Origin: Novosphingobium decolorationis | GTDB taxonomy: Bacteria > Pseudomonadota > Alphaproteobacteria > Sphingomonadales > Sphingomonadaceae | Assembly: GCF_018417475.1 (NCBI RefSeq) | Contig: NZ_CP054856.1 | Location: forward strand, 2,449,001 to 2,513,000 | Length of the DNA stretch: 64,000 nt | Direction of reading: 5' to 3' | Shown: positions 2,836 to 56,768 of the stretch, piece after piece | Layout of the letters: every line of letters starts with the position of its first letter | How positions within the stretch are numbered: the first letter of the stretch is position 1 | The notes under the pieces: generated by a model | Seen by the model: the letters and a program-made list of their open reading frames with translations, nothing else | Databases searched by the model: none | Told to the model about the DNA's origin: nothing | Translations under genes and position numbers: made by a program

Positions 2836-2949
2836 TCAAGGGGCCATCGCCCCTTGACCCCAGAATCGGGAACCTCACCATTCTCAACCAACGCCGCGCG
2901 CGAAAGGTGGGGTAGACAGTTCGGGGAGCCCGAGGGCGATGGCCCTCGG
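2836..2949 (+). repeat. Hairpin-ended intergenic repeat, copy 1
   Basis: The first palindrome is CAAGGGGCCATCGCCCCTTG at 2837-2856 (8-bp stem, loop CATC). The last is CCGAGGGCGATGGCCCTCGG at 2930-2949 (8-bp stem, loop GATG). The interior carries AACCTCACC and GGTGGGGT, a weakened form of the inner stem seen in other copies. It lies between two convergent genes, so it could terminate both. Seven related copies occur elsewhere in the window. Confidence 0.9.
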
Positions 2950-3052
2950 AAACCTTTCTTCTACCTGCCCCACCCCGCAGGTGCCTCGGTGGCCGTACGC
3001 GGTGGGACAGGCAGTTCGCAAGGACCGGCGATTGCCGATCCCTATCGGATCC

Positions 3053-3541
3053 TTAGAAGCGCGCCTGCAGGCCGCCTGCGACATAGCCGTCGCCCACGTT
3101 CACCTTGGCATCGAGCATCGGCATGACCGGCATCGAGGCGGTGCCGTAAGCGCGCACCGAATCGCCCATGTAGCGCGCGCCCACGCCCAGCGTGACCATC
3201 GGCAGGCTGTAGCTGGCTTCCACGCGGCCATAAGCCTTGAGGCCGGTGCCGTCGCAATGGTCGTCGTTCACCGCGACATCGTCGATGCGGCGGTAGCACA
3301 CGCCATCGTCCGAGGTGTAGCGCGGGTGGTCCTTGTCGTAGATGAAGGCGCCGACCGAGGGCGTCACGGCGAAGCCGCCGTCGCGCAGGATCGGGTAGCC
3401 CACACCCAGTTCGCCGCCCCACTGGCCCTTCCACTTGGCGACATTCGCCTCGGCGGTGACCTGCGCCGCAGCGGGCGAGGCGGCCAGCAGCGATCCGCCC
3501 AGGGCTGCAGCGGCTAGGGCGAGGATGTGGCGGTGCGACAT
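3053..3541 (-). CDS. Secreted protein, probable small outer-membrane beta-barrel
   Basis: A 162-residue product starting MSHRHILALAAAALGG, a typical Sec signal peptide with cleavage after ASPAAA. An upstream in-frame extension exists, but this ATG sits next to the hydrophobic segment and has AAGGAT in front. The mature part has short alternating strands (GGELGVGYPI, GVGARYMG, VAGGLQARF) and ends in Phe, as outer-membrane barrels recognised by BamA often do. Two Cys residues may form a disulfide. No specific family was recognised. Transport or adhesion roles are not supported by anything visible. Confidence 0.7.
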   Translation of the reverse strand: MSHRHILALAAAALGGSLLAASPAAAQVTAEANVAKWKGQWGGELGVGYPILRDGGFAVTPSVGAFIYDKDHPRYTSDDGVCYRRIDDVAVNDDHCDGTGLKAYGRVEASYSLPMVTLGVGARYMGDSVRAYGTASMPVMPMLDAKVNVGDGYVAGGLQARF

Positions 3542-3735
3542 GGTTCGTATCCTTTTCGGGTATGCACAAAGAGGCACACACGGCCTCCCCCGCGCATGCA
3601 GACGGCCCTGTTGCGCATAGCGCCCCGCAGCGACAAGCAGGGCGCACGCAGCCCGTCCCGCCACCCCGTCACCTCACCGCTATCCCGTACAAGAAACGCG
3701 CCGGACCGTGGGTTTAGGTAGGGGCAAAGCCCTGG

Positions 3736-4383
3736 TCAGGCCATTGCGTCGAGCGCGTCGCCCACCGGCGTATCGCCATCGGTCAATTCCAGGATCACGC
3801 GCGAGAGCTGCGGGCGCTCCAGAATCCCGGCCAGAACCTGCGCCACGTGATCGCGCGACACATTGCCATAGGGCAGCGCGAGGCCCAGCGCGACCTTGCC
3901 ATCGCCGCCCTCGGAACTGAGCGTGCCCGGGCGCACGATCACCCAGTCGAGATCGCTCTGCGAGAGGTGCGCGTCGGTCAGCTTCTTGATCCGCATGTAG
4001 TTCTCAAGCCCTTCCTTGGGCTCGGCATCGCGCCCTGCCTCGGGAAAGGCCGAGACGAGGAGGAAGCGCGTGGCCCCCGCCTTGCGCGCGGCTGCGACGG
4101 CCTTGACCAGCCCGTCACCATCGACCGCCTGGGTGAGGTCGTAGCCCGCCCCGCCCGCGCCGGCCGAGAAGACCACCGCATCGGCGCTCTCCATAAGCTC
4201 GGCCAGCTCATCGACGGTAAGCGCGGTGATGTCGCCCGCCACCGGCTTGGCACCCTTGTCGGCGAGGATCTGCGCCTGTTCGCTCTTGCGGTGCATGGCC
4301 AGCGGCACATGGCCCGCATCGGCCAGCAGGGGGACGAGACGCGAGCCGACCTTGCCAGCGGCACCGATGATGAAGACGTTCAT
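3736..4383 (-). CDS. NAD(P)-binding Rossmann-fold reductase (atypical SDR, NmrA/YwnB-like)
   Basis: A 215-residue protein starting MNVFIIGAAGKVGSRLV, which contains the dinucleotide-binding glycine motif GAAGKVG at residues 7-13. VSAFPEAG and DWVIVRPGTL are typical of the atypical SDR group that includes YwnB and NmrA-like proteins. These bind NAD(P) and act as small reductases or redox sensors. The canonical SDR catalytic YxxxK is not evident in the usual place, although YMRIKK near residue 140 could substitute. It is divergent from bioF across 216 bases. Substrate unknown. Confidence 0.8.
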   Translation of the reverse strand: MNVFIIGAAGKVGSRLVPLLADAGHVPLAMHRKSEQAQILADKGAKPVAGDITALTVDELAELMESADAVVFSAGAGGAGYDLTQAVDGDGLVKAVAAARKAGATRFLLVSAFPEAGRDAEPKEGLENYMRIKKLTDAHLSQSDLDWVIVRPGTLSSEGGDGKVALGLALPYGNVSRDHVAQVLAGILERPQLSRVILELTDGDTPVGDALDAMA

Positions 4384-4599
4384 GGTATTCGTTCCTGTTC
4401 TGGTGCGACAGGCAGGCGCAGCACGCCTGCCTTTTTCCGTATCCTTGCCAACCCATGTCGGAACGCGGTGTTCCGATGACAACCATCTGGGGCGACGCGA
4501 TTTCCCGGCGCCTGCCAGGCCGCGATGCCTGAGCGCGCAACAGGAAGTTCCCCCCGCGCCATTGTCTCTTGGGCCCGCTTGCCATAACCGGCACCGAGA

Positions 4600-5763
4600 A
4601 TGACACGGCTCGACCCCTTTCTGACCCAGGCCCTCGCGCGGATCGACACGGCCGGGCAGCGCCGCACCTTGCGCCCCGCCCATCTCGAAGGCGCAGGCCG
4701 GATCGTGCGCGCGGGGCGCACTCTCGTCGACTTCTCCAGCAACGACTACCTCGGCCTCGCCCGCCACCCCGAACTGCGCGCGCGCGCCATCGCCTGGACC
4801 CAGCGCTTCGGCACCGGATCGGGCGCCTCGCGCCTCGTCACGGGCACCAGCGCCGGGCAGCTGGCGCTGGAGGCGCGGATTGCCCGCTTCAAGCACACCG
4901 AGGCCGCACTGGTCTTTGCGAGCGGCTGGCAGGCCAATGCCACCGTCATCCCCGCGCTGCTGGCCGCCGTGCCGGACTGCGTGGTCTTCACCGACCGGCT
5001 GATCCACGCCTCGATGCACGCAGGGCTGGCGAGCGCGGGCGTGCGCCAGGTGCGCTTTCGCCACAACGATCTCGACCACCTCGAAACGCTGCTGGAAAGC
5101 AAGGGCCGCGAGGCACCCGCACGCCTGATCCTGACCGAGAGCGTGTTCTCGATGGACGGCGACCGCGCCGACCTTGCTCGCCTCGCCGACATCGCGCAGC
5201 GCCACGAGGCCGCGCTCTACGTCGACGAGGCCCACGCGACCGGCGTCCTGGGACCGGGCGGCACCGGCCTCACAGGCGAGGTGCCCGGGCGCATCGATCT
5301 CGTCATGGGGACCTTCAGCAAGGCGCTCGGCGGCTTTGGCGCTTATGTCGCAGGCTCGCGTGTCCTCATCGACTACCTCGTCAACGCGGCGAGCGGCTTC
5401 ATCTTCACCACCGCGCCGCCGCCTGCGGTGCTCGGCGCCATCGACGCCGCGCTCGATCTCGTGCCCTCCCTGGACGCCGAGCGCGCGCATCTGGCCGCTC
5501 TGGGCGACCGGCTGCGCGAAGGGCTCGGCGCGCTCGGGCTCGACTGCGGTGCCTCCAGCACGCAGATCGTACCGGCCGTGATCGGCCCGGAAGGCGAGAC
5601 CCTCGCGCTCTCGGCGCGGCTCGATACGGCCGGGTTCCTCGTCTCGGCGATCCGCCCGCCCACCGTTCCCCCCGGGTCCAGCCGTCTGCGCATCGCGCTG
5701 CGCGCCGCCCATTCTTTTGACGACATCGACGCGCTGCTGACAGCGCTCAAGGACGCCTTGTGA
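4600..5763 (+). CDS. bioF: 8-amino-7-oxononanoate synthase
   Basis: A 387-residue PLP enzyme that condenses pimeloyl-ACP with L-alanine to give KAPA, the first step of biotin ring assembly. Fold-type I alpha-oxoamine synthase motifs are clear: SSNDYLGLA near 46, GSGASRLVTGT near 73, VDEAHATGVLG near 208, and the PLP lysine in GTFSKALGG (Lys241). Length is normal for BioF. It is the first gene of bioF-esterase-bioC-bioD-bioA, and its stop overlaps the next start (GTGA). Start context is plain ATG. Confidence 0.96.
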   Translation: MTRLDPFLTQALARIDTAGQRRTLRPAHLEGAGRIVRAGRTLVDFSSNDYLGLARHPELRARAIAWTQRFGTGSGASRLVTGTSAGQLALEARIARFKHTEAALVFASGWQANATVIPALLAAVPDCVVFTDRLIHASMHAGLASAGVRQVRFRHNDLDHLETLLESKGREAPARLILTESVFSMDGDRADLARLADIAQRHEAALYVDEAHATGVLGPGGTGLTGEVPGRIDLVMGTFSKALGGFGAYVAGSRVLIDYLVNAASGFIFTTAPPPAVLGAIDAALDLVPSLDAERAHLAALGDRLREGLGALGLDCGASSTQIVPAVIGPEGETLALSARLDTAGFLVSAIRPPTVPPGSSRLRIALRAAHSFDDIDALLTALKDAL

Positions 5764-6380
5764 ACCTTCTCTTCGCCCACGGCTGGGGCTTTGATGCCGC
5801 CTTCTGGGAGCCGCTCGCCGCCCTCCTGCCCGAGCACGCGCACGTGTTCGACGACCGCGGCTATTTCGGCGCGCCCACCCCGGCGGAAATCGAAGGCCCC
5901 TGCCTTGCCGTGACGCACAGCTTCGGCACCATGCGCGTTCTTTCCGATCCGCCGCCGGGCCTTGTCGGCATCGTCGCCTTCAACGGCTTCGACCGCTTCA
6001 GCGCGCGCACCGGACGCGCCGGGGTCCCTGTTCGCGTGATCGACCGCATGCTGCGCCGCTTCATCCAGAGCCCCGAGACCGTGCTTGCCGAATTTCGCGC
6101 GACCTGCGGCGATACGGCGCCGGTGCCCACGCCCGTCCCTGATCCCCTGCGCGAAGACCTGCTGCGTCTGCGCGACGGCGAATGCCCGACGCCTGCCGTC
6201 CCGCTCACGTCGGTTCAGGGCCGCGCCGATCCGCTCCTTGCGCGCGAGATGCGTGAGAGCGTCTTTCCACGCGGCGAAGTGCGCCGGGTGAGCCATGCAG
6301 GCGGCCATCTCCTCCCGGTCGAGGACCCGGCCTTCTGCGCCGAGACGGTGCGCGCCATGGTCGGCGCGCTGGTCGCCTGA
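5760..6380 (+). CDS. Alpha/beta hydrolase, probable pimeloyl-ACP methyl ester esterase (BioH/BioG-like)
   Basis: A 206-residue hydrolase starting at GTG inside the bioF stop. The opening LLFAHGWGFDAAFW resembles the oxyanion region of BioH and BioG. The likely triad is Ser54 (in THSFGT), Asp157 (GRADPLL) and His183 (HAGGHLLP). The nucleophile elbow is H-S-F-G rather than the usual G-x-S-x-G. Position between bioF and bioC strongly suggests it removes the methyl group that BioC adds to the pimeloyl precursor. At 206 residues it is shorter than E. coli BioH (about 256) and nearer BioG in size. The role is inferred from operon context. Confidence 0.8.
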   Translation: MNLLFAHGWGFDAAFWEPLAALLPEHAHVFDDRGYFGAPTPAEIEGPCLAVTHSFGTMRVLSDPPPGLVGIVAFNGFDRFSARTGRAGVPVRVIDRMLRRFIQSPETVLAEFRATCGDTAPVPTPVPDPLREDLLRLRDGECPTPAVPLTSVQGRADPLLAREMRESVFPRGEVRRVSHAGGHLLPVEDPAFCAETVRAMVGALVA

Positions 6381-6388
6381 GGCCGGCC

Positions 6389-7156
6389 TTGCGCGTCCGC
6401 CGCGACCAGATCGCCCGCGCCTTTTCGGGCGCCCACGGCTACGAGGCCCACGCGCCGGTCCAGCGCGAGGTCGCCCGCGCATTGGCCGCCCGCATCGCCG
6501 CGCTGGATCTGCCCTGTGACCTTCGCGGCCTGGAAATCGGCTGTGGCACCGGCTTCCTGACCCGCGAACTGCAGGCCGCCCACGTCACCGGGGACTGGCT
6601 CGTCACCGACCTTTCGCCCGACATGCTCGCACGCTGCCGCGCGGCCCTGGGCGAGAGCTCCGGCCACCGTTTCGCCCCGCTCGACGGTGAGACCGGAACC
6701 CCCGAGGGCGGCCCCTTCGACCTTCTCTGCTCCAGTCTGGCCCTGCAGTGGTTTACCGATGCGCCCGCAGCGCTTGCCCGGATGGCCCGATGGCTGGCGC
6801 CGGGCGGCCATCTTGTCGTCACCACGCTGGGGCCCGCGACATTTGCCGAGTGGCGCGCCGCGCACGAAGCGCTCGGCCTCACGCCTGGCACCCCCGCCTT
6901 TCTCCCGCCCGAAGCTTATACGCAGCTTCCCGGAGCCGACGTCACCGTCACGCACCACGTCCAGCGCAGCGCGGACGCGCGCGCCTTCCTGCGCAGCGTC
7001 AAGGCGATCGGTGCAGGCACCGCGCATGCCGCCCACACGCCGCTCACCCCTACGCAACTTCGCGAGGTCATGGCGCAATTCGACATTAACGGATCCACGG
7101 CCACCTACGAAGTCGTGACGATCCACCTGACCCGCCCCCCGATCCGGACAAGGTGA
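6389..7156 (+). CDS. bioC: Malonyl-ACP O-methyltransferase
   Basis: A 255-residue class I SAM-dependent methyltransferase. BioC methylates the free carboxyl of malonyl-ACP so that fatty acid synthesis can extend it to pimeloyl-ACP methyl ester. The SAM-binding motif LEIGCGTGF is near residue 49, the acidic motif is DLSPDML, and SSLALQWF is typical of BioC. Translation appears to start at TTG at 6389, eight bases past the previous stop. No ATG is available upstream of the conserved RRDQIARAF. The stop overlaps an in-frame GTG at the head of bioD. Confidence 0.92.
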
Positions 7157-7164
7157 TTGTACCG

Positions 7165-7827: not shown

Positions 7828-9089
7828 GCACGCCCCCCGCATCGTCGATCTGGCACCCCTTCACCCAGCACGGCCTGGGCGAGCCGATCCCCGAAGTCAC
7901 CCGCGCGCAGGGTGCGGTCCTACACCTTGCCGACGGGCGCTCCATGATCGATGCGATCTCATCCTGGTGGGTGACGACGCACGGGCACTGCAATCCCAGG
8001 ATCATGGCCGCGATCGCCGAGCAGGCGGGCAAGCTCGACCAGATGATCTTTGCAGGCTGGACCCACGGCCCCGCCGAGGAGGTCGCCCGAGGTCTTCGCG
8101 CGATCATGCCCGAGAGCCTGACGCGCGTGTTCTTCTCCGATTCCGGATCGACCAGCGTCGAGGTCGCCCTCAAGATGGCCCTCGGCTACTGGCACTGGCA
8201 AGGCGAGGCGCGCTCGCGCATCCTCGTCATGGAACACTCCTACCACGGCGACACCATCGGGGCGATGTCGGTGGGCGAACGCGGCGTGTTCAACCAGCCC
8301 TACGACCCGCTGCTCTTCGATGTCGGGCGCATTCCCTTCCCGGCCACAGGCTGCGAAGACGCCACGCTCGAAGCGCTCGAACGCTACTGCGCGATGGGCG
8401 ACACCGCCGCGCTGATCGTCGAGCCGCTGGTACTGGGGGCTGGCGGCATGCTGTTCTACAGCGCCGACGTGCTGGCCCAGATGCGCGCGATCTGCGCACG
8501 GCACGGCGTTCTCTTCATCGCCGACGAGGTCATGACCGGATGGGGCCGCACCGGCACGCTGCTGGCCTGCGAACAGGCAGGTATCGAACCCGACATCCTG
8601 TGCCTCTCCAAGGGCCTGACGGGGGGCGCGGTGCCGCTCGCGGTGACGATGGCGAGCGAGGCGATCTACGAGGCGCACCTCTCCACCGACCGCGCGCGCA
8701 TGTTCTTCCACTCCTCCAGCTACACCGCCAATCCGCTCGCCTGCGCCGCAGCTGCCGCGAACCTGGCGATCTGGCGCGAGGAACCGGTGCGCGAACGCAT
8801 CACGCAGCTGAGCGCCAGCCAGGCATCCTGGCTCGACAAGCTGGGGCAGGTCTACCACTTCGACAACGCACGAAGCCTTGGCACGATTGCCGCGCTCGAC
8901 CTCAAGAGCGACGGGGCAACGGGCTACATGAACGACCTGGCGCCCCGGCTCATGGCCTTCTTCCGCGAACGCAGCGTGCTGCTGCGCCCGCTCGGGAACA
9001 CGGTCTACGTGATGCCGCCCTATGGCATCACCGACGAGGAACTTGCCACCGTGTGGGACGCCATCGGTGAGGCCGTCCTGAGCTTCTGA
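7824..9089 (+). CDS. bioA: Adenosylmethionine-8-amino-7-oxononanoate aminotransferase
   Basis: A 421-residue class III aminotransferase that converts KAPA to DAPA with SAM as amino donor. Diagnostic features are WHPFTQH near the start, [13 protein letters not shown] near 46, [26 protein letters not shown] and the PLP lysine in LSKGLTGG (Lys263). It closes the biotin operon. bioB, needed for the last step, is absent from the window and must be elsewhere if the organism makes biotin. Forty bases downstream lies a hairpin-ended repeat, which may serve as the operon terminator. Confidence 0.96.
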
Positions 9090-9129
9090 AGCCTGGAAAT
9101 CGGGCCGCGGGACAAGAAGAAGGATGATT

Positions 9130-9243
9130 CCGAGGGCCATCGCCCTCGGGCTCCCCATAATGTCGACCTCACCTCCCGCGCGCGGCCCTCGCTGAGAATG
9201 GTGAGGTCGCTGATTTTGGGGTCAAGGGGCGATGGCCCCTTGA
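9130..9243 (-). repeat. Hairpin-ended intergenic repeat, copy 2 (inverted)
   Basis: The outer palindromes are CCGAGGGCCATCGCCCTCGG (9130-9149) and CAAGGGGCGATGGCCCCTTG (9223-9242). Inside, GACCTCACC and GGTGAGGTC form a perfect 9-bp inverted repeat around a GC-rich loop, giving a three-stem layout. It lies between convergent bioA and the fasciclin gene. Confidence 0.9.
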
Positions 9244-9271
9244 AAAAGACTTCCTTCTTGCCCCTTGGTCT

Positions 9272-9868: not shown

Positions 9869-9890
9869 CTTGGGGTCTCTCCTGGGGGTC

Positions 9891-11064: not shown

Positions 11065-11173
11065 CGAAAATCTCCTTTCGGGGCCTTTCAACGCGGCAAT
11101 CGGCGTGCCTGTTCCCCGCAAGGTCGCGATGCACGCTCGCCCGCGGCCCTCTCCCTGCCCCGAAACGGCATGC

Positions 11174-12840: not shown

Positions 12841-13218
<378 letters not shown>

Positions 13219-15115: not shown

Positions 15116-15228
15116 CAAGGGGCCATCGCCCCTTGACCCCGGAACTGGTGACCTCACCGGTCTCGGCAAGCTCGGCGCGAGAGCCTTGAGGTTTCGGGTA
15201 TGGGGAGCCCGAGGGCGATGGCCCTCGG
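15116..15228 (+). repeat. Hairpin-ended intergenic repeat, copy 3
   Basis: The palindromes are CAAGGGGCCATCGCCCCTTG (15116-15135) and CCGAGGGCGATGGCCCTCGG (15209-15228), both perfect. The interior has GACCTCA and TGAGGTT. It lies downstream of the Roadblock gene and upstream of the SH3-argC pair, both on the minus strand. Confidence 0.9.
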
Positions 15229-15856: not shown

Positions 15857-17206
15857 TCAGGCGGCAACCGTGTTGAGCGAGAGAATCGTATCGAGGCTGC
15901 GCTGGAGTTCGGCGCTCTCGAAAGCCACCACGCCGCCTGCGAAGGCTTCGGCGGTATCGTGAAGCCCCGCCAGTTCGTCGACAAGACCCGCCAGCGCGTC
16001 GTCGAGGACCGGGAGAAGGGCTTCCATTTCATGGCGAATGTCCGACTTCTCGATCAGGCTGCGCCACTTGCGCAGCAACAGGGTAGTGACCTTGAGCGTG
16101 CTCTCGGTGGCCTTGATCTGCGCCGCCATGTGCCGGGCCTGGTCGCGGTCATCGTCGAGGCTGGTGTGCATCGAATCGATCCCGTTCTCGAGCGCCTGGA
16201 CCAGCGTCTGGGTGGCCGCGCTCGAGGTTTCCAGGTCCTCGCGCCCGTCGATCGTGTCGGCGGCGAAGCGGCAGACCGATTCGGCCTGAAGCTGCGCAAT
16301 GCTGACAGAGGCGCGCAGGCCGTGGCGCTGGACGCAGGTCTGATCAACCGCATCGAGCACGCCCTGCATGGTTGCCGCGACCTTGTGGCACTGGTCCTCC
16401 AGCGCCGGGGCGGCCTTGGCGACGTGCGGCTCAACCTTGGCATTGCCGGTGACGACGAAGCGCGCGTTGGCAACCGCCTCCTCCAGCCGTCCCAGGCTAT
16501 GGACTGCCTTGGCGACCCGCGCGTCGAGCGCTTCAGCCAGATGGTCGGCGTTGGCGAGTGCGTCTGCCAGCGTACGCACCTGCCCCTCGATCGCGGCCCC
16601 CGCGTCGAGCAGCGCGCGCGCGCCGCCGGTCGCGGACGGGCGGGTCGGAATGGTGACGCCGGCCTGGAAGCGCAGCTCCAGCTCGCGCGGGAGAAAGGCG
16701 TTCTGGAACGCCTCGTAGCTTGGGTACCCCAGCTTCTCGAGTTCGGCGAGGATCACCTCTTCGCCGATGCGCGCTGCGCGGCCCGCGCTCTCGCCCTGCG
16801 CCATGGCTTGGACCTCCGCCTCGCGGGCGGTTTCGTAGACGGTGTGGACCGCATCGCGAATGCCCAGGTCGATCGGGCGCGCGCGCACCGAGATATAGCC
16901 CTTGCCCAGCGGCGAAACGGTCGCCAGCGCCCAGTAGCTGCTGCCGTCGCCCGCCAGGTTGAAGACGTAGCCGCTGAACGCGCGGCGGGCCCCGATCGTC
17001 TCCCACATCAGGCGGAAGACACCGCCCGGCATGTCGGGATGGCGGATGAGGTTGTGCGGCGCGCCGATCAGATCTTTGCGATCGAGACGCGCCATTTCGA
17101 CGAACACCTGGTTCGCCTGCTCGATGACCCCCTTGGAATCGGTCGTCGAGAAGAACAGGTCATCGAGGGCGACCTCGTGGAATGCTCCTGTCGGTTCGAA
17201 TGTCAT
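15857..17206 (-). CDS. Aer-type PAS sensor protein lacking a methyl-accepting domain
   Basis: A 449-residue soluble protein. Residues 10-110 form an Aer-like PAS domain (IGAPHNLIRHPDMPGGVFRLMWETI is the Aer signature; GDGSSYWALATVSPL follows). The rest is long predicted helices with no transmembrane segment, no HAMP domain and no MCP hairpin tip. It could sense redox state or a flavin-linked signal and pass it through its helical part. The Roadblock gene lies immediately downstream. It may be a cytoplasmic degenerate chemoreceptor; output unknown. Confidence 0.78.
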   Translation of the reverse strand: MTFEPTGAFHEVALDDLFFSTTDSKGVIEQANQVFVEMARLDRKDLIGAPHNLIRHPDMPGGVFRLMWETIGARRAFSGYVFNLAGDGSSYWALATVSPLGKGYISVRARPIDLGIRDAVHTVYETAREAEVQAMAQGESAGRAARIGEEVILAELEKLGYPSYEAFQNAFLPRELELRFQAGVTIPTRPSATGGARALLDAGAAIEGQVRTLADALANADHLAEALDARVAKAVHSLGRLEEAVANARFVVTGNAKVEPHVAKAAPALEDQCHKVAATMQGVLDAVDQTCVQRHGLRASVSIAQLQAESVCRFAADTIDGREDLETSSAATQTLVQALENGIDSMHTSLDDDRDQARHMAAQIKATESTLKVTTLLLRKWRSLIEKSDIRHEMEALLPVLDDALAGLVDELAGLHDTAEAFAGGVVAFESAELQRSLDTILSLNTVAA

Positions 17207-25108: not shown

Positions 25109-25523
25109 CGAATGTGCCCAGTCTTGCTCCTTGGGTACCGAATTTGGTCCTTCGCCGGCTTGCGCCCGCTACTATGACCGCTGCTGACTTCTCCGGGCCC
25201 ATCCAGCAACATCACTGCCGCTGTTCTCCGGATCGTCCGGAGAGGCCAGGAGATCTCCCGGGGTAAGACGTTGATCCTTCACTCGGTCGCTGCCGGATTT
25301 ACCAATGCGCGCGTCTGTCTGGCTATCGGACATCCCCATCCATTGCTGGGTTATCCCGCCGCACCGGCCTTCTATCCGATTCCTGTTCGTCAGCTCCGAG
25401 CTTTGCCTCCGGCTTCCTCCCCACCCCGCCTCGCGGCGACGCAGTTGCCTTCAGCTAGCAGTTCCCACCAGCAGGCCTGCAAAGGACTTACACCTCCTGC
25501 ATCAACGCCGTGCCCGGCACACA

Positions 25524-33729: not shown

Positions 33730-35489
33730 CATTCGCTCGCCGTGCGGTTCTGACCGCGATGCTGGGAACGGCGCTTGTCGCCGTGCCCGCCGAAGCCCGC
33801 AAGAAGAAGAAGGCCGAGGAGGTCGAGAAGCCGGTCCCCGGCACGCTCATCGACAACATCAAAGGGCTCTCGCCCGACGGCAAGGGCGGGATCGAGCACT
33901 TCGACGGCTTCCTGATCGCGCCGGACGGCCACGTCGCTGAGGTCTACCACGAGGGCGAGAAGCGCCCCAAATACGCCGACTACCGCCTCGATGGCGAGGG
34001 CCAGGTGGTGGTCCCGGGCATGATCGACGCGCACACGCACGTCATGATGCTGGGCTTTTCCAAGCTGACGCTCGACCTGTCCTCCACCCACTCGCTCGAC
34101 GAGGCGCTCGCCCGCATCGCGGCCTGGACCGCCGCCCACCCCGAGGCGCCCTGGATCCTGGGCACGGGCTGGAACGAGGTCGAGTGGGGCCTGGGCCGTC
34201 TACCTACCGCCGCCGAACTCGACCGCGTGACCGGCGGCAAGCCTGCCTGGCTGACCCGCATCGATGCGCACGGAGGCTGGGCCAACACCGCCGCGCTCGA
34301 AGCGGCAGGCATCACCGCCAAGACCAAGGACCCCAAGGGCGGGCGCATCGTACGCACCGCTTCGGGCGCGCCCGAGGGCGTCCTTGTCGATGCGGCGGCC
34401 AAACTGGTCGCGGCCAAGCTCCCCGCTCCGCGCCCGGAGGACCGCGACGCCGCGCTCGCCGAAGCCCAGCTCGATTTCCTCAAGAACGGGGTCACGGCGG
34501 TTGCCGACATGGGCACCAGCATCGAGGACTGGCAGGCGTTCCGCCGCGCGGGCGATACCGGGCGGCTGCGCGTGCGCATCGTCTCCTACGCCGATTCGAT
34601 TGCCAACATGGAGCTGATCGGCGGGCCCGGCCCCTCGGCCTGGGTCTACGACGACCGCCTGCGCCTCAGCGGCGTGAAGCTGTTCCTCGATGGTGCGCTC
34701 GGCTCGCGCGGGGCCTGGCTCAAGCAGCCCTACGCCGACGATCCCGAAACACGCGGCCTGCCGCTCCTCTCGCAGACCCAGCTTTCCAACATGATGAGCC
34801 GCGCCGCGCTCGACCACTTCCAGGTCGCGGTCCACGCCATTGGCGACGAGGCCAACGCGGTCGTGCTCGACGCGCTCGAGGAACTGTCCTCGACCTACAC
34901 CGGCGACCGGCGCTGGCGCATCGAACACGCGCAGATCCTCGATCCCGCCGACATCGCGCGCTTTGCCGCGCACGGCACCATTGCCTCAATGCAGCCCCAG
35001 CACGAGGCGAGCGACCGCACCATGGCCGAAGCGCGCCTGGGCCCTGCGCGCCTGTCCGGAGCCTATGCCTGGAAGTCGCTGGCGAACGCCGGGGCCACGC
35101 TCGCCTTTGGATCGGACACCCCGGTCGAACCCGCGCGCCCCTTCACCGGCATGGCGGTTGCCGTGACCCGGCAGGGCGCGGACGGCCAGCCCTTGGTCGG
35201 CTGGCAACCGCAGGAGACGATCTCACGCGAAGCCGCGCTCACCGCCTACACCACAGGCGCGGCCTACGCGATGTTCGCCGAGGATCGCCTGGGGCGCATC
35301 GCCAAGGGCTACCGCGCGGACTTCCTGTTCGTGGACAAGGACCCGATGACGGTCAGCCCCGAAGCCCTGCGTGACCTCACGGTCAAGGAAACCTGGATCG
35401 GCGGCCAGCAGGCCTGGGCGGCGGAAGAAAGCGCAAAGAGCGAAGAAGCGCTGCGGCCCGAAGAAGAAGACGGCCAGGAAGGGCGGTAA
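33726..35489 (+). CDS. Secreted YtcJ-like amidohydrolase
   Basis: A 587-residue metal-dependent amidohydrolase starting at GTG inside the previous stop. A Sec signal peptide (AMLGTALVAVPAEA) is followed by a Lys-rich patch. Metal ligands are visible in GMIDAHTHVMM and in the later VHAIGDEAN, EHAQIL and FGSDTPVEP. This is the YtcJ/exoenzyme-regulatory amidohydrolase group, which hydrolyses amide bonds of small molecules. The C-terminus ends in a charged tail (ESAKSEEALRPEEEDGQ) not typical of the family. Substrate unknown. Confidence 0.87.
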   Translation: MTFARRAVLTAMLGTALVAVPAEARKKKKAEEVEKPVPGTLIDNIKGLSPDGKGGIEHFDGFLIAPDGHVAEVYHEGEKRPKYADYRLDGEGQVVVPGMIDAHTHVMMLGFSKLTLDLSSTHSLDEALARIAAWTAAHPEAPWILGTGWNEVEWGLGRLPTAAELDRVTGGKPAWLTRIDAHGGWANTAALEAAGITAKTKDPKGGRIVRTASGAPEGVLVDAAAKLVAAKLPAPRPEDRDAALAEAQLDFLKNGVTAVADMGTSIEDWQAFRRAGDTGRLRVRIVSYADSIANMELIGGPGPSAWVYDDRLRLSGVKLFLDGALGSRGAWLKQPYADDPETRGLPLLSQTQLSNMMSRAALDHFQVAVHAIGDEANAVVLDALEELSSTYTGDRRWRIEHAQILDPADIARFAAHGTIASMQPQHEASDRTMAEARLGPARLSGAYAWKSLANAGATLAFGSDTPVEPARPFTGMAVAVTRQGADGQPLVGWQPQETISREAALTAYTTGAAYAMFAEDRLGRIAKGYRADFLFVDKDPMTVSPEALRDLTVKETWIGGQQAWAAEESAKSEEALRPEEEDGQEGR

Positions 35490-35497: not shown

Positions 35498-35611
35498 CCG
35501 AGGGCCATCGCCCTCGGGCTCCCCAAACCGTCGACCTCAAGGCTCCCACGCTTTCGTAGCCGAGAACGGTGAGGTCGCCCATTTTGGGGTCAAGGGGCGA
35601 TGGCCCCTTGA
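35498..35611 (-). repeat. Hairpin-ended intergenic repeat, copy 4 (inverted)
   Basis: The outer palindromes are at 35498-35517 (CCGAGGGC…, loop CATC) and 35591-35610 (CAAGGGGC…, loop GATG). The inner pair is GACCTCA (35533-35539) and TGAGGTC (35570-35576). CCCATTTTGGGG beside the last palindrome is a small extra inverted repeat. It fills the gap between convergent genes, 8 and 9 bases from the two stops. Confidence 0.92.
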
Positions 35612-43360: not shown

Positions 43361-43473
43361 CAAGGAGCCATCGCCCCGTGACCCCAGAATCGGCAACCTC
43401 CTGCGTCCCAGCAAAGGATGGGCGCGAAAGGTGAGCCAGATAGTATGGGGAGTCCGAGGGTGATAGCCCTCGG
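43361..43473 (+). repeat. Hairpin-ended intergenic repeat, copy 5 (decayed)
   Basis: The left palindrome is mutated (CAAGGAGCCATCGCCCCGTG, 43361-43380), and the right one is changed to CCGAGGGTGATAGCCCTCGG (43454-43473). The middle keeps CCCAGAATCGG and AAGGTG. It lies upstream of two divergent genes, the only copy not at a 3' end. The rest of the 43176-43543 gap shows nothing recognisable beyond likely promoters. Confidence 0.82.
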
Positions 43474-48213: not shown

Positions 48214-48326
48214 CAAGGGGCCATCGCCCCTAGCCCCCAGAATGGGCAGCCTCGCCATTCTCGGCCGCGCTAGCGCGTGAAAGGTGCGCTCGACAATTCG
48301 AGGAGCCCGAGGGCGATGGCCCTCGG
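48214..48326 (+). repeat. Hairpin-ended intergenic repeat, copy 6
   Basis: The left palindrome is CAAGGGGCCATCGCCCCTAG (48214-48233, slightly decayed) and the right is CCGAGGGCGATGGCCCTCGG (48307-48326, perfect). The interior keeps CTCGCCATTCTCGG and AAAGGTG. Downstream of the RcnB-like gene on the minus strand. Confidence 0.88.
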
Positions 48327-48930: not shown

Positions 48931-49291
48931 GAAAAAACTCCTTCAACATGCAGCCGGGGTGGCGGTCTGTGCATTCAGGTTTTACCCACCCTAAATGAAC
49001 GAAGCAGGAGCGCGCCGTACACCTCCCGCTCAGCAGTGTCGCAGCGCTGCGACAGGTCCCGGGAAACCCGCGCAAATGCGTGGGATCGCCCGCCAGATTG
49101 AAACAGCAACCCTCTGAAAATAATTCCAGTATCCGATAGATTGCACGGCTTGGGCGATGCCCCGTGCGGGCTTTCCGGGCCGATTCTTTTCCACCGCCAA
49201 CGCCCCTGCGATCCACCCCCCTCTTGCAAGCGGGCGCGCACAGGGCCATCTTTCGCCTTGGAAGCAAACCATCCTCATCAGAAAGGAACGC
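48931..49291. other. Divergent gap between RcnB-like gene and phoH
   Basis: A 361-base gap with divergent starts at both ends. A/T-rich sequence around 49090-49135 (GAAACAGCAACCCTCTGAAAATAATTC region) probably carries promoters. No gene or RNA motif recognised. Confidence 0.5.
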
Positions 49292-50344
49292 ATGGCCCGT
49301 AAAGCAGCCCGCGCCGACAACGATACGGTGCACCTGAGGCCCGACACCCACCGTCGCGCCCGTGTCGAAGTGGAATTCGACGAACCCACGCTGCTGGGGG
49401 CCTTGTTCGGACAGTTCGATTCCAATCTCGTGCAGGTGGAGAACCGCCTCGGCGTCTACATCGCCGCGCGCGGCAACAAGATCCAGATCGAGGGCCCCGA
49501 AGACGCCGTCGCCCGCGCGCGCGAAACGGTGACGGGCATGTACCGGCAGCTTGAACAGGGCCACCAGGAGCTTGATTCGGGCGCGATCGAGGCGCTCATC
49601 TCGATGTCGGCCGAACCCACTCTCGATGGCATCATCACCGGCGATGCCGACAACGGCGGCAAGGGCCCGCCGATCATGATCCGCACCCGGCGCAAGACCA
49701 TCGTGCCGCGCTCGACCACCCAGATCGAGTACATGCGCGCGCTCGCCAAGTCGGACGTCATCTTCGCGCTCGGCCCGGCGGGCACGGGCAAGACGTACCT
49801 CGCGGTCGCGCAGGCCGTCTCGCAGCTGATGACCGGCTCGGTCCAGCGCCTGATCCTCTCGCGCCCCGCGGTCGAGGCGGGCGAGAAGCTGGGCTTCCTG
49901 CCCGGCGACATGAAGGACAAGGTCGATCCCTACCTGCGCCCGCTCTACGACGCGCTCTATGACTGCATGCCGCCCGAGCAGGTGGAACGCCGCCTCGCCA
50001 GCGGCGAGATCGAGATCGCGCCGATCGCCTTCATGCGCGGACGCACGCTGGCCGATGCCTTCGTCATCCTCGACGAGGCGCAGAACACCACGCGCGAACA
50101 GATGAAGATGTTCCTCACCCGCTTCGGCCAGAACAGCCGGATGGTGGTGTGCGGTGACCCCAAGCAGGTCGACATTCCCGGTGGCGACCGCATGTCGGGC
50201 CTTGCCGATGCCGTGACCAAGCTCGAAGGCGTGGACGGGATTGCCGTCACCCGCTTCTCCGCCGCCGACGTTGTGCGCCATCCCATCGTGGGCCGCATCG
50301 TCGAAGCCTACGAGGGCCCGCTTTCGCAGTACGACGAGGGCTAA
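49292..50344 (+). CDS. PhoH-like ATPase (YbeZ)
   Basis: A 350-residue P-loop ATPase. The N-terminal KH-like region is followed by the ATPase core: Walker A GPAGTGKT, then [18 protein letters not shown], Walker [10 protein letters not shown]. YbeZ works with YbeY in rRNA maturation. Start ATG 49292 has AAGGA upstream; the open frame before it carries no conserved residues. In many alphaproteobacteria it follows miaB and precedes ybeY; here it has lost contact with miaB, and a repeat lies before ybeY. Confidence 0.92.
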
Positions 50345-50662
50345 GAAGGGAAGGAAGACACGATTCAAGGGGTCATCCCCCTTGACCCCAGAATGGGCGA
50401 CCTCACCGTCCTTCGCCAACGCAGCGCGACAAGGGTGAGCCAGACAGTCTGGGGAGCCCGAGGGCGATGGCCCTCGGAAGGTCTCTTCCTTGCTCCCTGC
50501 CAGGCGCCCTTGCAGTTTGCGCACAGACCTTTCGGCCTGGATTATTGCCTTGCGCTTTGTGACCTCAACGTGACGCGCGCCCTGCAATATCGATTGCAAA
50601 AAGGGCCGAATTCCCGCTTTTCCCCGCTCGACCCGGACGCATTGGAGCGCTAAGGGGCGGCG
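50345..50662. other. Gap between phoH and ybeY
   Basis: A 318-base gap, unusually long for this gene pair. It contains repeat copy 7 (50366-50477) and 185 bases beyond it with no recognised motif, probably including a separate ybeY promoter. Confidence 0.6.
50366..50477 (+). repeat. Hairpin-ended intergenic repeat, copy 7
   Basis: The left palindrome CAAGGGGTCATCCCCCTTG (50366-50384) has lost one base compared with others. The right is perfect (50458-50477). The interior has GACCTCACC and AGGGTGAG. It separates phoH and ybeY, co-directional genes normally adjacent. Confidence 0.88.
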
Positions 50663-51154: not shown

Positions 51155-51177
51155 CCTTCGAGGGATACCCAATCACG

Positions 51178-52095: not shown

Positions 52096-52158
52096 GAGTA
52101 CCCATGCACACCGGCGCACTCCCGCGCGCGGTGAACCGAAGCGAAAAGACCAGAGACA

Positions 52159-53043
52159 TTGCCCGTACGTCGACTTCCCCCACTGCGCGCGCTTGAAGCG
52201 TTCGTCCGCGTCGTCCGCCTAGGTTCCGCCAAGGCCGCCGCGAACGAGCTCGCGCTCAGTCCGTCCGCCCTCTCCCGCCGTGTCGCCGCTCTCGAGGACT
52301 TCACCGGCAAGCGTTTGTTCACCCGTCAGCACCAGGCTATGAAGCTGACCGACGAAGGCCAGGCCTTCTACAACGTCGTCGGCCCCAAGCTCGAGGAGCT
52401 GGCCGAGGCGGTGGAATCGCAGATCGACCGCGGCCAGGTCCTGCGCCTGCACCTGGGCGTCCCCTCGCTGTTCGGTGGCCAGCGCCTGTTCCCGCGCCTG
52501 CCCGAGCTGCGCAAGCTGCACCCGCGCCTGCACATCGACATCGACACCGGCACGCACCTCGAAGCGCGCGTGGGCGACACGCTCGACGCCGCGGTGATCT
52601 TGGCCAAGGAACCCGACCCGGCCTTCTACCGTGTCCAGCTTGACCACAACAAGGTCTATGGCATCGTCTCGCGCGAGATGGCCAACGACCTGGGACCGCG
52701 CCCGGACAAGGACAAGCTCTCCAAACAGACCTTCCTGATCCACCAGGATCTGCCCGACAGCCTCGATGCGTGGAAGAAGGCGATCGGCCTGCCCGATCTG
52801 GAGCCCGCCTCGGTCGACAAGTTCGACTCCGGCCAGCTCGTGCTCGAAGCCGCCGCGCAGGGGCTGGGCATCGCGATCATGCACGATGATCACTTCCGCC
52901 GCTCGAACGACGGCCGCCTCGCGCGCCTCTACGACATCGACGTGGAAAGCCCCTACCGCTACTGGTTCGTGTGCCGCCCCAAGGCGCTCGAAACGCGTCC
53001 CGTGCGCATGTTCCACGAGTGGCTGCAGCAGGCTGGCCTCTAA
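52159..53043 (+). CDS. LysR-family transcriptional regulator (GcvA-like)
   Basis: A 294-residue regulator with an N-terminal winged HTH (PPLRALEAFVRVVRLGSAKAAANELALSPSALSRRVAALE, pieces typical of GcvA-like LTTRs) and a C-terminal effector domain. It starts at TTG 52159, the only good option; no in-frame ATG or GTG upstream. It lies 63 bases after corC. Its target is unknown; LTTRs often regulate a divergent neighbour, but here none is divergent. Confidence 0.88.
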   Translation: MPVRRLPPLRALEAFVRVVRLGSAKAAANELALSPSALSRRVAALEDFTGKRLFTRQHQAMKLTDEGQAFYNVVGPKLEELAEAVESQIDRGQVLRLHLGVPSLFGGQRLFPRLPELRKLHPRLHIDIDTGTHLEARVGDTLDAAVILAKEPDPAFYRVQLDHNKVYGIVSREMANDLGPRPDKDKLSKQTFLIHQDLPDSLDAWKKAIGLPDLEPASVDKFDSGQLVLEAAAQGLGIAIMHDDHFRRSNDGRLARLYDIDVESPYRYWFVCRPKALETRPVRMFHEWLQQAGL

Positions 53044-53094
53044 GACTTCCGGGCCAAGGCCCGAACACCGCAAGCCCCCCCCTTACGTCCGTCA

Positions 53095-53117
53095 GGCCGG
53101 ATCAGCGCGATCCGGCC
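53095..53117. terminator. Bidirectional hairpin between LysR and rhomboid genes
   Basis: GGCCGGATC, loop AGCGC, GATCCGGCC: a perfect 9-bp stem in the 81-base convergent gap. Probably ends both transcripts, though no T tract is visible. Confidence 0.5.
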
Positions 53118-53124
53118 CGTCGGT

Positions 53125-53841
53125 CTATCCCTCGCCGCAAGCGCCCGTCTTGCCCAGCGCGCCCAGCGCCACCAGAGCCGGGGCAAGCAGGAACCCGGTG
53201 ACAAATCCGCCCAGATGGGCCTCCCAGGCGAGCCCCGAGGCGGCCTCGAAGAGCACCGGCACCCCGCCCAGCGCGCAGACCGCCCAGAACTGGGTCCGCG
53301 CCATGGCCAGCACCTCGCGCCCCATCGCCACCGAGCAGACCTCGCCCACGCCCGCGGTCATCGCCTTGTGCCGGGCGAGAAAGCCGATCAGCCCGAACAC
53401 CACGCCCGAGGCCCCCAGCAGGCCCTCGCCTCCCGCGCGGTGGAGCGCAAGATAGGCCAGCCCCCCGGCCAGCCCGCTGGCCTCGAACAGCAGGCCAAGG
53501 CGCAGCCAGGCGCACAGCCCCCCGCCCAGCCGGTGCACCGCCAGCGCGGCCAGCGGCACGAAGGCAAAGGCCGTGATCGCAAGGTGCAGCGCGGAGGCAT
53601 GGGCGAACATGTGCATCTGCAGCGTGGCGAGGTGCCCCTCCCCGAGCGCCTCGCGCGAGACCCGCCAGGCCAGCATCCGGTCGGTGTCGAACAGGCGTAC
53701 GACGAAGACGTAAGCCATGAAGCCCAGCAGCGCCCAACCGGGCGCATAGTCCTGCCAGGGAATCACGGGACCAGGGCGCTCCTCCCGCCCGGCCCCGCAA
53801 TCCTCTGCGCGTATGTGCACCGCCACCCGTTCGCTGCTCAT
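53125..53841 (-). CDS. Rhomboid-family intramembrane serine protease
   Basis: A 238-residue membrane protein. Catalytic residues are present: Ser145 in GASGVVFG and His209 in EAHLGGFVTG. The usual HxxxN oxyanion side is represented by HMFAHASALHLAIT. At least six helices. The start at ATG 53841 is chosen; the frame extends to 53886. Substrates unknown. The gene is 58 bases short of the cyclophilin terminator upstream and probably has its own promoter. Confidence 0.87.
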   Translation of the reverse strand: MSSERVAVHIRAEDCGAGREERPGPVIPWQDYAPGWALLGFMAYVFVVRLFDTDRMLAWRVSREALGEGHLATLQMHMFAHASALHLAITAFAFVPLAALAVHRLGGGLCAWLRLGLLFEASGLAGGLAYLALHRAGGEGLLGASGVVFGLIGFLARHKAMTAGVGEVCSVAMGREVLAMARTQFWAVCALGGVPVLFEAASGLAWEAHLGGFVTGFLLAPALVALGALGKTGACGEG

Positions 53842-53912
53842 CACACCCTCCATCAAGGGGCGAGGATACCAAGCGATTCGCCGCAAGGGGTGTGTTCTGG
53901 ATCACGCCCACG

Positions 53913-53950
53913 AAAAAAGGGCGCCCCCTCAAGAGGAAGCGCCCTTTTTC
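53913..53950 (-). terminator. Terminator of the cyclophilin gene
   Basis: An 11-bp stem AAAAAGGGCGC/GCGCCCTTTTT with a 14-base loop. On the minus strand it follows the cyclophilin stop by 45 bases. The A/T flanks make it work in both directions. Confidence 0.8.
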
Positions 53951-53994
53951 AGCGTATCCGCCCCCCACATGGGGCGCGGATGCGGCCCGCACTC

Positions 53995-54459
53995 TTACGA
54001 GAGCGCGGCCTTCACGATCTTGCCCGGCTCGCGCGGCGGCTCGCCCTTGGGCAGCGCGTCGACGTGATCCATGCCTTCGACCACTTCACCCCAGACGGTG
54101 TACTGCTTGTCGAGGAAGCGCGCATCGTCGAAGCAGATGAAGAACTGGCTGTTGGCCGAGTGCGGGTAGCTGGTGCGGGCCATCGAGCACACGCCGCGCA
54201 CGTGCGGTTCGGCGCTGAATTCCGCCTGCAGGTCGGGCTTGTCCGAACCGCCCATGCCGGTGCCGTTGGGGCAGCCGCCCTGCGCCATGAAGCCGGGGAT
54301 CACGCGGTGGAAGAGGATACCGTCGTAGAAACCTTCCGAGGTCAGCTCCTTGATGCGCTCGACGTGACCGGGGGCCAGGTCGGGGCGCAGCTTGATCTTG
54401 ACGTCGCCGCCTTCGCCGTTGCCGGTGTCGAGCGTGAAGGTGAGAAATTCATCAGCCAT
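53995..54459 (-). CDS. Cyclophilin-type peptidyl-prolyl isomerase
   Basis: A 154-residue cytoplasmic cyclophilin, one domain. It has FYDGILFHRVIPGFMAQGG (active Arg and Phe), SMARTSYPHSANSQFFI and YTVWGEVVEGMDHVD. No signal peptide, so it is the PpiB-like cytoplasmic form. It catalyses proline cis-trans isomerisation in protein folding. Confidence 0.94.
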   Translation of the reverse strand: MADEFLTFTLDTGNGEGGDVKIKLRPDLAPGHVERIKELTSEGFYDGILFHRVIPGFMAQGGCPNGTGMGGSDKPDLQAEFSAEPHVRGVCSMARTSYPHSANSQFFICFDDARFLDKQYTVWGEVVEGMDHVDALPKGEPPREPGKIVKAALS

Positions 54460-54655
54460 CGAAAACTCCTGTCGCCGCGCGGATGCGGGCCGTTAGGTGG
54501 GCTGGCAGGCCGCGCGGGGGCGGGCGCCATGTGAACCGGCCCCCGATATAGGCGATGGTGCGCCGTTGTCACGTTCCGCGCGGCCAGCGTGCACGAAATT
54601 CATCCGCGCCGGGGGGAACTGTTGCAATTGCGAAATTGCCGCGTAGACCCGCCCC

Positions 54656-56131
54656 ATGAGCGATACGGATCTCAAGGACGAACGCATCGAGGACGCGGAT
54701 CTGCGCGACGAGAGCCTTGCTGCGTCCGAATTTCCCGAGGATCCGGACGGTGAGCCTGAAACCGAGAGCGAAAGCCTCGACGAGGACAACCGCCTCAAGG
54801 CCGATTACGTCCGCGCGGTCAAGGACGCCTTGTGGGAGGAAGACTTCGACCGCGTCTACGAACTGGTCGAACCGCTCCACCCCGCCGACATCGCCGACCT
54901 GTTCGAGCTGGTCGATGCCGACGAGCGCCCGGTGCTGGCGCGCTCGATCCGCGACCTCATGGGCGTGGAGGTCATCGCCGAGCTGAACGACTGGGTGCGC
55001 GAGCTCCTCGTCGAGACGCTGCCCGCCGAAGTGGTCGCGGGCTTTGCCGGCGAGCTCGACACCGACGATGCCGTCGCGATGCTGGAGGACCTCGACGAGG
55101 ACAACCAGCGCGCGGTCCTGGCCGAGATGGAGCCGGAAGACCGCGCGGCCATCGAATCGGCGCTGTCCTACCCCGACGAATCCGCCGGGCGCATGATGAG
55201 CCGCGAGTTCGTGGCCGTGCCCGAGACGATGACGGTGGGCGACCTCATCGATTTCCTGCGCGAACACCGCGAACTGCCGACCGAGTTCTGGGAAGTGTTC
55301 ATCGTCGATCCGATGCACCGCCCGATCGGCACCTGCGTCCTGTCCTGGATCCTGCGCTGCCCGCGCAACATCCCGCTCTACGACGTGATGAAGCGCGAGC
55401 AGACGCTGATCCCGGTCGACATGGACCAGGAAGAGGTCGCGCTGCGCTTCCAGAAGTACGCGCTGATCTCGGCCGCGGTGGTCGACACCTCGGGCCGCCT
55501 GATCGGCCAGATCACGGTCGACGACGTGGTCCACATCATTTCCGAGGAAGCGGGCGAGGACGCCCTGCTCCTCTCCGGCGCGGGCGACGGCGACATCAAC
55601 GAGCCGATCCGCGATGCCTGGTCGGGGCGCGTGCGCTGGCTGATCGCGAACCTGCTCACCGCCACGCTCGCCTCGGCGGTCATCGCCATGTTCGAGGACA
55701 CCATCGCGGCCATGGTCGCGCTCGCCACGCTCATGCCGATCGTGGCGGGGCTGGGTGGCAACGCAGGCACGCAGACGCTGGCCGTCACCGTGCGCGCGCT
55801 CGCGATGAACCAGCTTACCCCGAGTAACGCCTGGCGCGCGGTCCGGCGCGAGATGTCCATCGCGCTTCTGAATGGCGGCACGGTCGCCGTCATCATCGGC
55901 CTCGCGGTCTCGCTGATCTTCGGCAATCCTATGCTGGGCGGAGTGATCGCCGCGGCCATGATGACCAACATCGTGATCGCGGGAATGGCGGGCGTGCTGA
56001 TCCCGCTCGCGCTCGAACGCCTCAACGCCGACCCGGCGATCTCGTCCTCGGTCTTCGTGACGATGACGACCGATTCGATGGGCTTCCTCGTCTTCCTGGG
56101 CCTGGCCACGATGTCCGGGCTGGTGGGCTGA
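54656..56131 (+). CDS. mgtE: Magnesium transporter MgtE
   Basis: A 491-residue protein with an acidic N-terminal MgtE domain (helices with EPLHPADIADLFELV), a CBS-domain pair (EEVALRFQKYALISAAVVDTSGRLIGQITVDDVVHII) and a five-helix channel domain from about 325. The channel signature LMPIVAGLGGNAGTQTL and MTTDSMGFLVFLG is present. The cytosolic domains sense Mg and gate the pore. Single gene; no M-box riboswitch seen upstream. Confidence 0.95.
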   Translation: MSDTDLKDERIEDADLRDESLAASEFPEDPDGEPETESESLDEDNRLKADYVRAVKDALWEEDFDRVYELVEPLHPADIADLFELVDADERPVLARSIRDLMGVEVIAELNDWVRELLVETLPAEVVAGFAGELDTDDAVAMLEDLDEDNQRAVLAEMEPEDRAAIESALSYPDESAGRMMSREFVAVPETMTVGDLIDFLREHRELPTEFWEVFIVDPMHRPIGTCVLSWILRCPRNIPLYDVMKREQTLIPVDMDQEEVALRFQKYALISAAVVDTSGRLIGQITVDDVVHIISEEAGEDALLLSGAGDGDINEPIRDAWSGRVRWLIANLLTATLASAVIAMFEDTIAAMVALATLMPIVAGLGGNAGTQTLAVTVRALAMNQLTPSNAWRAVRREMSIALLNGGTVAVIIGLAVSLIFGNPMLGGVIAAAMMTNIVIAGMAGVLIPLALERLNADPAISSSVFVTMTTDSMGFLVFLGLATMSGLVG

Positions 56132-56187
56132 GCGCACACGCAAGAACCGTGTTGGCGTTCGCGCCCATCCTCCCTATCTAGCCTGTG

Positions 56188-56592
56188 ATGCCGCTGCACA
56201 TGACGAAGATTGCCTTTGCCGCCCAGAGCCCCGCCGACCTGCGCGCCTGGCTGGAAAGCCACGCGCCCTTCGGCGAGGCGCGCCTCACCACCCGCTACGT
56301 GCCCAAGCGGCAGGAGGAGATGGTGGGCGGATCGCTCTACTGGATCTTCGAGCACGCGCTCATCGGACGCTCGCCGATCCTGGGCTTTGAACAACGCGAG
56401 AGCGACGGGCGCTGGCACATCCGCCTCGAACCGCGCCTGATCCCGGTCGTCACCAAGCCCAAGCGCGCCCACCAGGGCTGGCGCTACCTCAAGGACGAGG
56501 ACGCCCCGCGCGACCTCACCGACGGCGAGGACAGCGGCGACATCATGCCCCCCAAGCTGGCGCGCGAGCTGATGAAGTTGGGGCTGGTTTAA
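56188..56592 (+). CDS. DUF1489 family protein
   Basis: A 134-residue cytoplasmic protein. LTTRYVPKRQEEMVGGSLYWIFEHALIGRSPILGF (in pieces) is typical of DUF1489, an alphaproteobacterial family of unknown function. ATG 56188 is directly after an in-frame GTG at 56185. It follows mgtE by 56 bases. No catalytic motif is evident. Confidence 0.85.
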   Translation: MPLHMTKIAFAAQSPADLRAWLESHAPFGEARLTTRYVPKRQEEMVGGSLYWIFEHALIGRSPILGFEQRESDGRWHIRLEPRLIPVVTKPKRAHQGWRYLKDEDAPRDLTDGEDSGDIMPPKLARELMKLGLV

Positions 56593-56654
56593 GGCGTCGT
56601 CGAACATCGGAAAGCCGGGTTTCAAGACGAAATGAGGACGTCAGAAGGATGATT

Positions 56655-56768
56655 CCGAGGGCCATTGCCCTCGGGCTCCCCATACCGTCGACCTCACCTC
56701 TCACCAGCTGCGTGGGCCGAGAATGGTGAGGTCGCCCATTTGGGGGTCAAGGGGCGATGGCCCCTTGA
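56655..56768 (-). repeat. Hairpin-ended intergenic repeat, copy 8 (inverted)
   Basis: The palindromes are CCGAGGGCCATTGCCCTCGG (56655-56674, one change) and CAAGGGGCGATGGCCCCTTG (56748-56767, perfect). Inner GACCTCACC and GGTGAGGTC form a perfect 9-bp stem. It lies between convergent DUF1489 and nudC. Confidence 0.9.

Follow-up and report, generated by a model that had tools for sequence, protein, structure and literature searches.

A REPIN-like intergenic repeat family in Novosphingobium without a detected Y1 transposase, and its likely part in two-way transcription termination

The window analysed here is a 64,000-nucleotide stretch of the Novosphingobium decolorationis chromosome (NZ_CP054856.1, positions 2,449,001 to 2,513,000 of the forward strand), and it holds eight copies of a short palindromic element, the subject of this work. 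An earlier note made from the letters alone had placed copies at eight positions. All eight are found there, with a core of 113 bp in seven and of 112 bp in one. In the standard 113-bp copy, two 20-nt hairpin modules face outward on either side of a central inverted repeat; a purine tract leads into the element and a pyrimidine tract follows it. In forward order come the purine tract, hairpin 1 (CAAGGGGC-CATC-GCCCCTTG), ACCCC and a central part with GACCTCACC and GGTGAGG; next are GGGGAGC, hairpin 2 (CCGAGGGC-GATG-GCCCTCGG), A and the pyrimidine tract. The end palindromes and their CATC and GATG loops are as the note described, with few changes (copies at 50366 and 43361). The inner stem GACCTCACC/GGTGAGGTC exists too, but it is fully perfect in only two of the eight copies (9130 and 56655) and not in several, as had been claimed. 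The copies belong to a real family resembling REPINs, inverted doublets of repetitive extragenic palindromic (REP) sequences; it is unusual in composition and confined to one genus in our sample: the kind is known, the family is new.

Gene positions come from our own caller, whose codon model was trained on the window and seeded by codon-position GC, rather than from an annotation. By these calls none of the eight copies overlaps a gene, in keeping with their description as intergenic. Copy 1 (2837-2949, plus strand; hairpins at 2837-2856 and 2930-2949) sits in a convergent gap with stop codons 9 and 102 nt away. Three minus-strand copies also lie between convergent genes: copy 2 (9130-9242), where the genes end at 9089 (plus) and 9272 (minus) and the stops are 39 and 29 nt away; copy 4 (35498-35610), with genes ending at 35489 (plus) and 35621 (minus) and stops at 7 and 10 nt; and copy 8 (56655-56767), with genes ending at 56592 (plus) and 56785 (minus) and stops at 61 and 17 nt. 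Copy 7 (50366-50477, plus), whose left palindrome is shortened, occupies a tandem gap; a plus-strand gene ends at 50344, and the copy begins 21 nt past its stop codon. Copies 3 (15116-15228) and 6 (48214-48326), both plus, are each flanked by two minus-strand genes, the nearer stop being 149 and 111 nt away, respectively. Copy 5 (43361-43473, plus) stands in a divergent gap; its left hairpin is degenerate and both palindromes carry changes. The outer tracts are exemplified by copy 2, which is preceded by a purine tract at 9110-9129 and followed by a pyrimidine tract at 9243-9262.

The structure recurs far beyond the window. A covariance model built from the eight copies finds at least 149 distinct places in the host chromosome among the matches listed (150 matches, which is also the number of candidates scored, with one place matched on both strands), all on contig 1 and on both strands. 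The 12-base pattern GGGCCATCGCCC occurs 112 times forward and 118 times reverse in the host genome, versus 0 and 0 for a reversed control pattern. Both hairpins are kept in 135 of the 149 copies by a pattern tolerating two mismatches per arm; the left hairpin is unrecognisable in 10 and the right in 4. Across the 135 two-ended copies, purines make up 76-95% at positions -18 to -9 and pyrimidines 88-95% at +6 to +12. The closing pair of hairpin 1 co-varies (CG 73, TA 18, GC 3, non-standard 9) in 103 gap-free cores (108 of 113 nt present, 5 near-duplicates removed). In the central stem of the host copies the middle is conserved and the outer pairs are not, with little compensation. For one copy (2816-2970), folding of the two strands gave z = -4.1 and -3.3. 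The element shows the general marks of REPs, which are a palindrome of 20-40 nt, high copy number and extragenic position, and its inverted palindrome pair forms a doublet as in REPINs. Rfam models matched none of the window elements at gathering scores and none of four loci at E up to 1, and the family was unmatched in phage records.

Where do the copies lie with respect to genes? Convergent gaps hold 88 of the 149, the window baseline being 7 convergent among 60 adjacent gene pairs, or 5 among 37 gaps of at least 50 nt. The others fall in tandem gaps (27 and 23) and divergent gaps (8), have no call on the left (2) or overlap a call (1). A stop codon lies within 60 nt of 117 of the 149 copies, and on both sides in 51; many copies near 3' ends had been named in the earlier note as support, and they are present. 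The median distance to flanking 3' ends is 24 nt (230 ends), and only 3 of 66 flanking 5' ends come within 60 nt. Other REPs are placed alike: most convergent REPs of S. wittichii and P. entomophila lie within 20 bp of both 3' ends (PMC3733652). Along the host contig G000:C1 the copies are not spread evenly (p = 0.001 for departure from uniformity); they crowd at about 1.3-1.75 Mb and again at 2.4-3.1 Mb. Clustering at the terminus was considered and is not claimed: in the stretches that were fetched, GC skew reverses its sign near 2.6 Mb, dnaA is at 4.00 Mb, and the two together do not fix the origin or the terminus.

What might such an element do at gene ends? A T-rich tail, defined by a relaxed rule as five or more T among 8 nt that begin 0-8 nt past the hairpin, is present at 95 of the 135 right and 73 of the 135 left ends; 3000 random stretches give 2.2% under this rule and 1.2% under a strict one. 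The T-rich part starts about six bases past the stem. In Zymomonas, a member of the same taxonomic order as Novosphingobium, verified intrinsic terminators have A residues upstream, and convergent gaps account for 34% of the matching termination sites versus 7.5% of others, such gaps being 15% of intergenic regions (PMC7566282). On these sequence features, two-way transcription termination by the elements is likely. Each module with its pyrimidine tract would serve as terminator for transcription arriving from the opposite side, and the element would also form an mRNA 3' hairpin, its stems capping the transcript ends and perhaps protecting the mRNA.

Read outward, both ends of the element follow one plan: GGGAGC or GGGGT, an 8-bp stem, a 4-nt loop, A or T, and a T-rich pyrimidine tract. 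The unit of the family is this module. A gap-free alignment could be made of 64 modules taken from the host and from several sister species, and 99.8% of their stem cells are paired across species, a percentage partly built in because rows were selected for stems of at least 7 pairs. The variety of the stems (CAAGGGG, CCGAGGG, GCGAGGG, CTGGGG, GCAGGGG, CCGGGGG) is not built in by that selection. Cells changed on both sides number 92 versus 22.2 in shuffles, and the covariation score is 0.503 versus 0.149, a value reached by none of 500 shuffles. In the sister species G002, ten aligned elements show two-sided change in 12 of 37 pairs versus 3.0 when shuffled and 0-1 when slid, the structure being drawn from one of the ten rows. 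Stems with compensatory changes are thus seen in modules and G002 elements alike. The central arm is near-perfect in several of the ten G002 copies (longest unbroken stem 7-29 bp), and three G002 copies fold at z of -13.5 to -14.3.

The earlier note had also suggested that the two loops could kiss in RNA. They are complementary in 90 of 103 host cores, or in 75 if only Watson-Crick pairs are counted, and covariation is seen at one loop position (Fisher p = 0.001); the hairpin-1 loops have drifted in G002, however, and of the 10 copies aligned there a single one still has complementary loops. Loop complementarity follows from the inversion of the ends, and the kissing-loop idea is weakened.

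The distribution of the module is patchy. Of 119 genomes of the genus, 61 match its model (up to 48 scored per genome), and copy numbers are very uneven: 15 of the 119 have at least 12 modules, the threshold by which we call a genome module-rich. An order-wide sample gave matches in 4 of 196 genomes, all of the same genus and thus in 1 of 63 genera (up to 29 scored per genome). G076 was rejected as a carrier, since its 13 and 10 pattern matches come with no model match; pattern counts alone can mislead. By exact pattern, no module was seen in the uvrA 3' flanks of 19 named Sphingomonadales loci among 80 fetched. Of 80 loci kept in a comparison by the UvrA C-terminus, the named one nearest to the host is that of Novosphingobium sp. 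AP12, at 93%. Plasmid MBES04p1 of Novosphingobium sp. MBES04 (AP026900.1) carries the family at three listed places, one at 16187-16311 (L324). By eye, the uvrA 3' ends of G000 (L063), G006 (L034) and G045 (L305) have modules apparently in the same orientation at differing distances. Also by eye, L300 (G125) and L306 (G101) seem to hold orthologous elements of two modules each, with a middle part that looks reversed between the two genomes, either by inversion in place or by an opposite insertion.

Have the copies moved? From 59 genomes searched, we picked some for inspection of the gaps orthologous to two window sites: 13 other genomes for the element at 50366 and 5 for the one at 56655. The element is missing in every case, and the module model, run over all 18 gaps, gave a single 10-base match (E 0.37). 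Some of these gaps hold other REP-like doublets (CGTC-like; L259, L261, L273) or a simple hairpin, as judged by eye. Among 11 distinct G002 copies, both flanks match a host copy site in one and a single flank in one more; the comparison covered host stretches around copies only, so for the remaining G002 copies the locus as well as the copy may be lacking. At C1:1417095, four copies stand in a tandem array of 169-bp period whose repeat includes flanks. A separate stretch, G000:C1:1616056-1619070 (L076), consists of tandem units of about 968 bp, each ending in the same right module.

Taken as a whole, we consider it fairly probable, though well short of certain, that the family is a lineage-amplified REP/REPIN-like element, akin to the bacterial interspersed mosaic elements (BIMEs), that lies between genes, has no REP-associated tyrosine transposase (RAYT), and would act as a two-way transcription stop and mRNA 3' hairpin. 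Its amplification would have been uneven across several Novosphingobium genomes, with copies spreading through trans-acting or host machinery. Copy number, architecture, compensatory stems and placement by our gene calls are directly shown. So are the T-rich tails, the patchy distribution, the empty orthologous sites and the lack of a detected Y1 transposase.

Several observations weigh against it. The host cores average 81% pairwise identity (132 copies), with little sign of recent transposition; only five pairs reach 95%, three of them within the tandem array, one sharing a flank and one 5.7 kb apart. The host central arm is eroded, its longest unbroken stem having a median of 8 bp (132 copies). 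Only 40 of the 135 right ends, and 12 of the left, have the shape of a strict intrinsic terminator, and when two stretches of the window were scanned with a strict terminator finder, the seven copies inside them all went unmarked. Two of five measures are weak in the module alignment: pairs with two-sided change number 5 of 8 versus 3.6 in shuffles, a value reached by 32 of 500, and further pair types number 9 versus 10.0. The outer purine and pyrimidine tracts were tried as a copy-specific fourth stem and rejected: the duplex energy is -14.39 with the copy's own partner and -14.03 with swapped partners (standard deviation 0.28), so that swapping barely alters it and the pairing of the tracts reflects composition.

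If the family is REPIN-like, where is its transposase? A linked RAYT gene had been proposed in the earlier note as supporting evidence, and none came to light: the Y1 family PF01797 was not found in the host, in a search whose control genomes were positive. A family once driven by a RAYT that has since been lost, its copies now decaying fossils kept where they are harmless at gene 3' ends, would have the REPIN anatomy, and it would fit the eroded central arms and 81% identity of the host copies. Y1 genes do occur in 37 of the 119 genomes of the genus, and GGAG lies within 6 nt of the inner foot in 124 of 135 right hairpins, as in Pseudomonas REPs (PMC2817692). Against this loss, only 1 of the 15 module-rich genomes has Y1 versus 36 of the 104 others (Fisher p = 0.035, kinship ignored; the cut-off for module-rich was chosen by us), the left module carries GGGGT, with GGAG at only 2 of 135 left feet, and G002 has near-perfect central arms and yet no detected Y1. 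GTAG occurs at none of the 270 hairpin feet. CGTC comes within 6 nt of one of the 270, and the aligned modules do not open their stems with two A-T pairs. The absence of a RAYT is not unique, because CGTC-type REPs are also described without a dedicated transposase (PMC3733652). Loss of a former RAYT is the strongest of the alternatives, and we still regard it as unlikely.

Could the stems matter in DNA instead? Cruciforms, or gyrase or nucleoid-protein sites of the kind proposed for BIMEs, would make the conservation unrelated to RNA, and the same stems could form in DNA. E. coli REPs have been reported as gyrase targets (PMC3733652), and a position between convergent genes, where positive supercoils meet, would suit such sites. 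Against this, a two-way terminator needs what the hairpins have, a purine tract ahead of them and a T-rich tail behind, and placement tracks stop codons, not starts; a role purely at the level of DNA seems improbable to us.

Longer relatives of the element bear on two further alternatives. Further pattern matches in the host led to 19 fetched stretches. In these, modules facing outward enclose about 183-200 bp in five cases, 771 bp in one and 966 bp in another; two matches lie inside called genes and the others have no partner by exact pattern. Inside the 966 bp is a frame (L274, 1761-2381, minus strand) for a TonB C-terminal domain, the family TonB_C scoring above the Pfam cut-off. In G006, outward modules about 1.6 kb apart adjoin uvrA and enclose two frames (L034, 75-1453, minus strand) without a Pfam or PADLOC family above cut-off. 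The enclosed frames may be carried genes or later insertions. The elements might be self-spreading, transposase-free terminator cassettes whose modules host replication or repair would copy or perfect by way of the single-stranded folds that they form, and which could bound and perhaps carry unrelated genes; we give this idea about the same low standing as the DNA-level one. Least probable of all is a miniature inverted-repeat transposable element (MITE), in which the copies would be insertion-sequence ends whose imperfect 20-bp terminal inverted repeats, which are indeed present, are recognised by a transposase: the longer bounded stretches (about 183-966 bp in the host, about 1.6 kb in G006) would suit it, but target-site duplications are absent from 135 two-ended copies (no match of 5 bases or more at five offsets, shorter ones within shuffle range), none of the three frames that were scanned within two of the long stretches is a transposase (one is TonB_C, and two have no family above cut-off), and no autonomous partner was seen, in work that included no systematic search for one. 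Of the earlier note's suggestion of a REP/BIME or MITE family, the REP/BIME half stands on anatomy, 3' placement, the at least 149 copies, the tandem array and compensation, and a strict MITE is not supported.

REPIN tags face outward, whereas the tag of the Novosphingobium element lies on the inner side and differs between its ends, with the purine and pyrimidine tracts outside. Also unlike the REPIN/RAYT system, no Y1 was found in 14 of the 15 module-rich genomes, host included, and GTAG is absent. The family otherwise resembles REPINs and GTAG-type REP doublets of Pseudomonas and enterobacteria in its inverted doublets, extragenic position and spacer pairing with compensation (PMC3116915, PMC2817692), and in tandem arrays including flanks and two alternative folds (PMC3116915). 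A GGGAGC ahead of one of the two hairpins is a further likeness. Alphaproteobacterial CGTC-type REPs likewise have no dedicated transposase, form dimers and lie near both convergent 3' ends, but here CGTC is at 1 of 270 feet and the stems do not start with A-T pairs (PMC3733652). CGTC-2 repeats are named in N. aromatocivorans; the CGTC-2 to -4 types have 5-nt loops and the present family a 4-nt loop, a distinction that uses the text description only (PMC3733652). The bidirectional terminators of Zymomonas mobilis and E. coli share the convergent enrichment and an A-rich stretch before and a U-rich stretch after the hairpin, whereas ours form a family of dispersed repeats, have two or three hairpins each, and carry a T tract that is displaced and contains C (PMC7566282).

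We recognised no published account of this family in searches of the literature on Novosphingobium or Sphingomonadales repeats, REPINs, mosaic elements, two-way terminators or RNA motifs. The RIME/ABC mosaic elements of rhizobia and ERIC are short intergenic palindromic repeats too, a likeness drawn by description only. Why does the family matter? A RAYT is the usual explanation for short palindromes of such a shape between genes, and nearly all sampled module-rich genomes lack a detected enzyme of that kind. The family offers a comparative system for how repeats multiply without a dedicated transposase, and it also lets one ask whether repeats persist by insulating convergent genes. Apart from the elements, the window contains group II intron domains RF02001 and RF01998 at 25147-25440 on the minus strand, above the Rfam gathering score.

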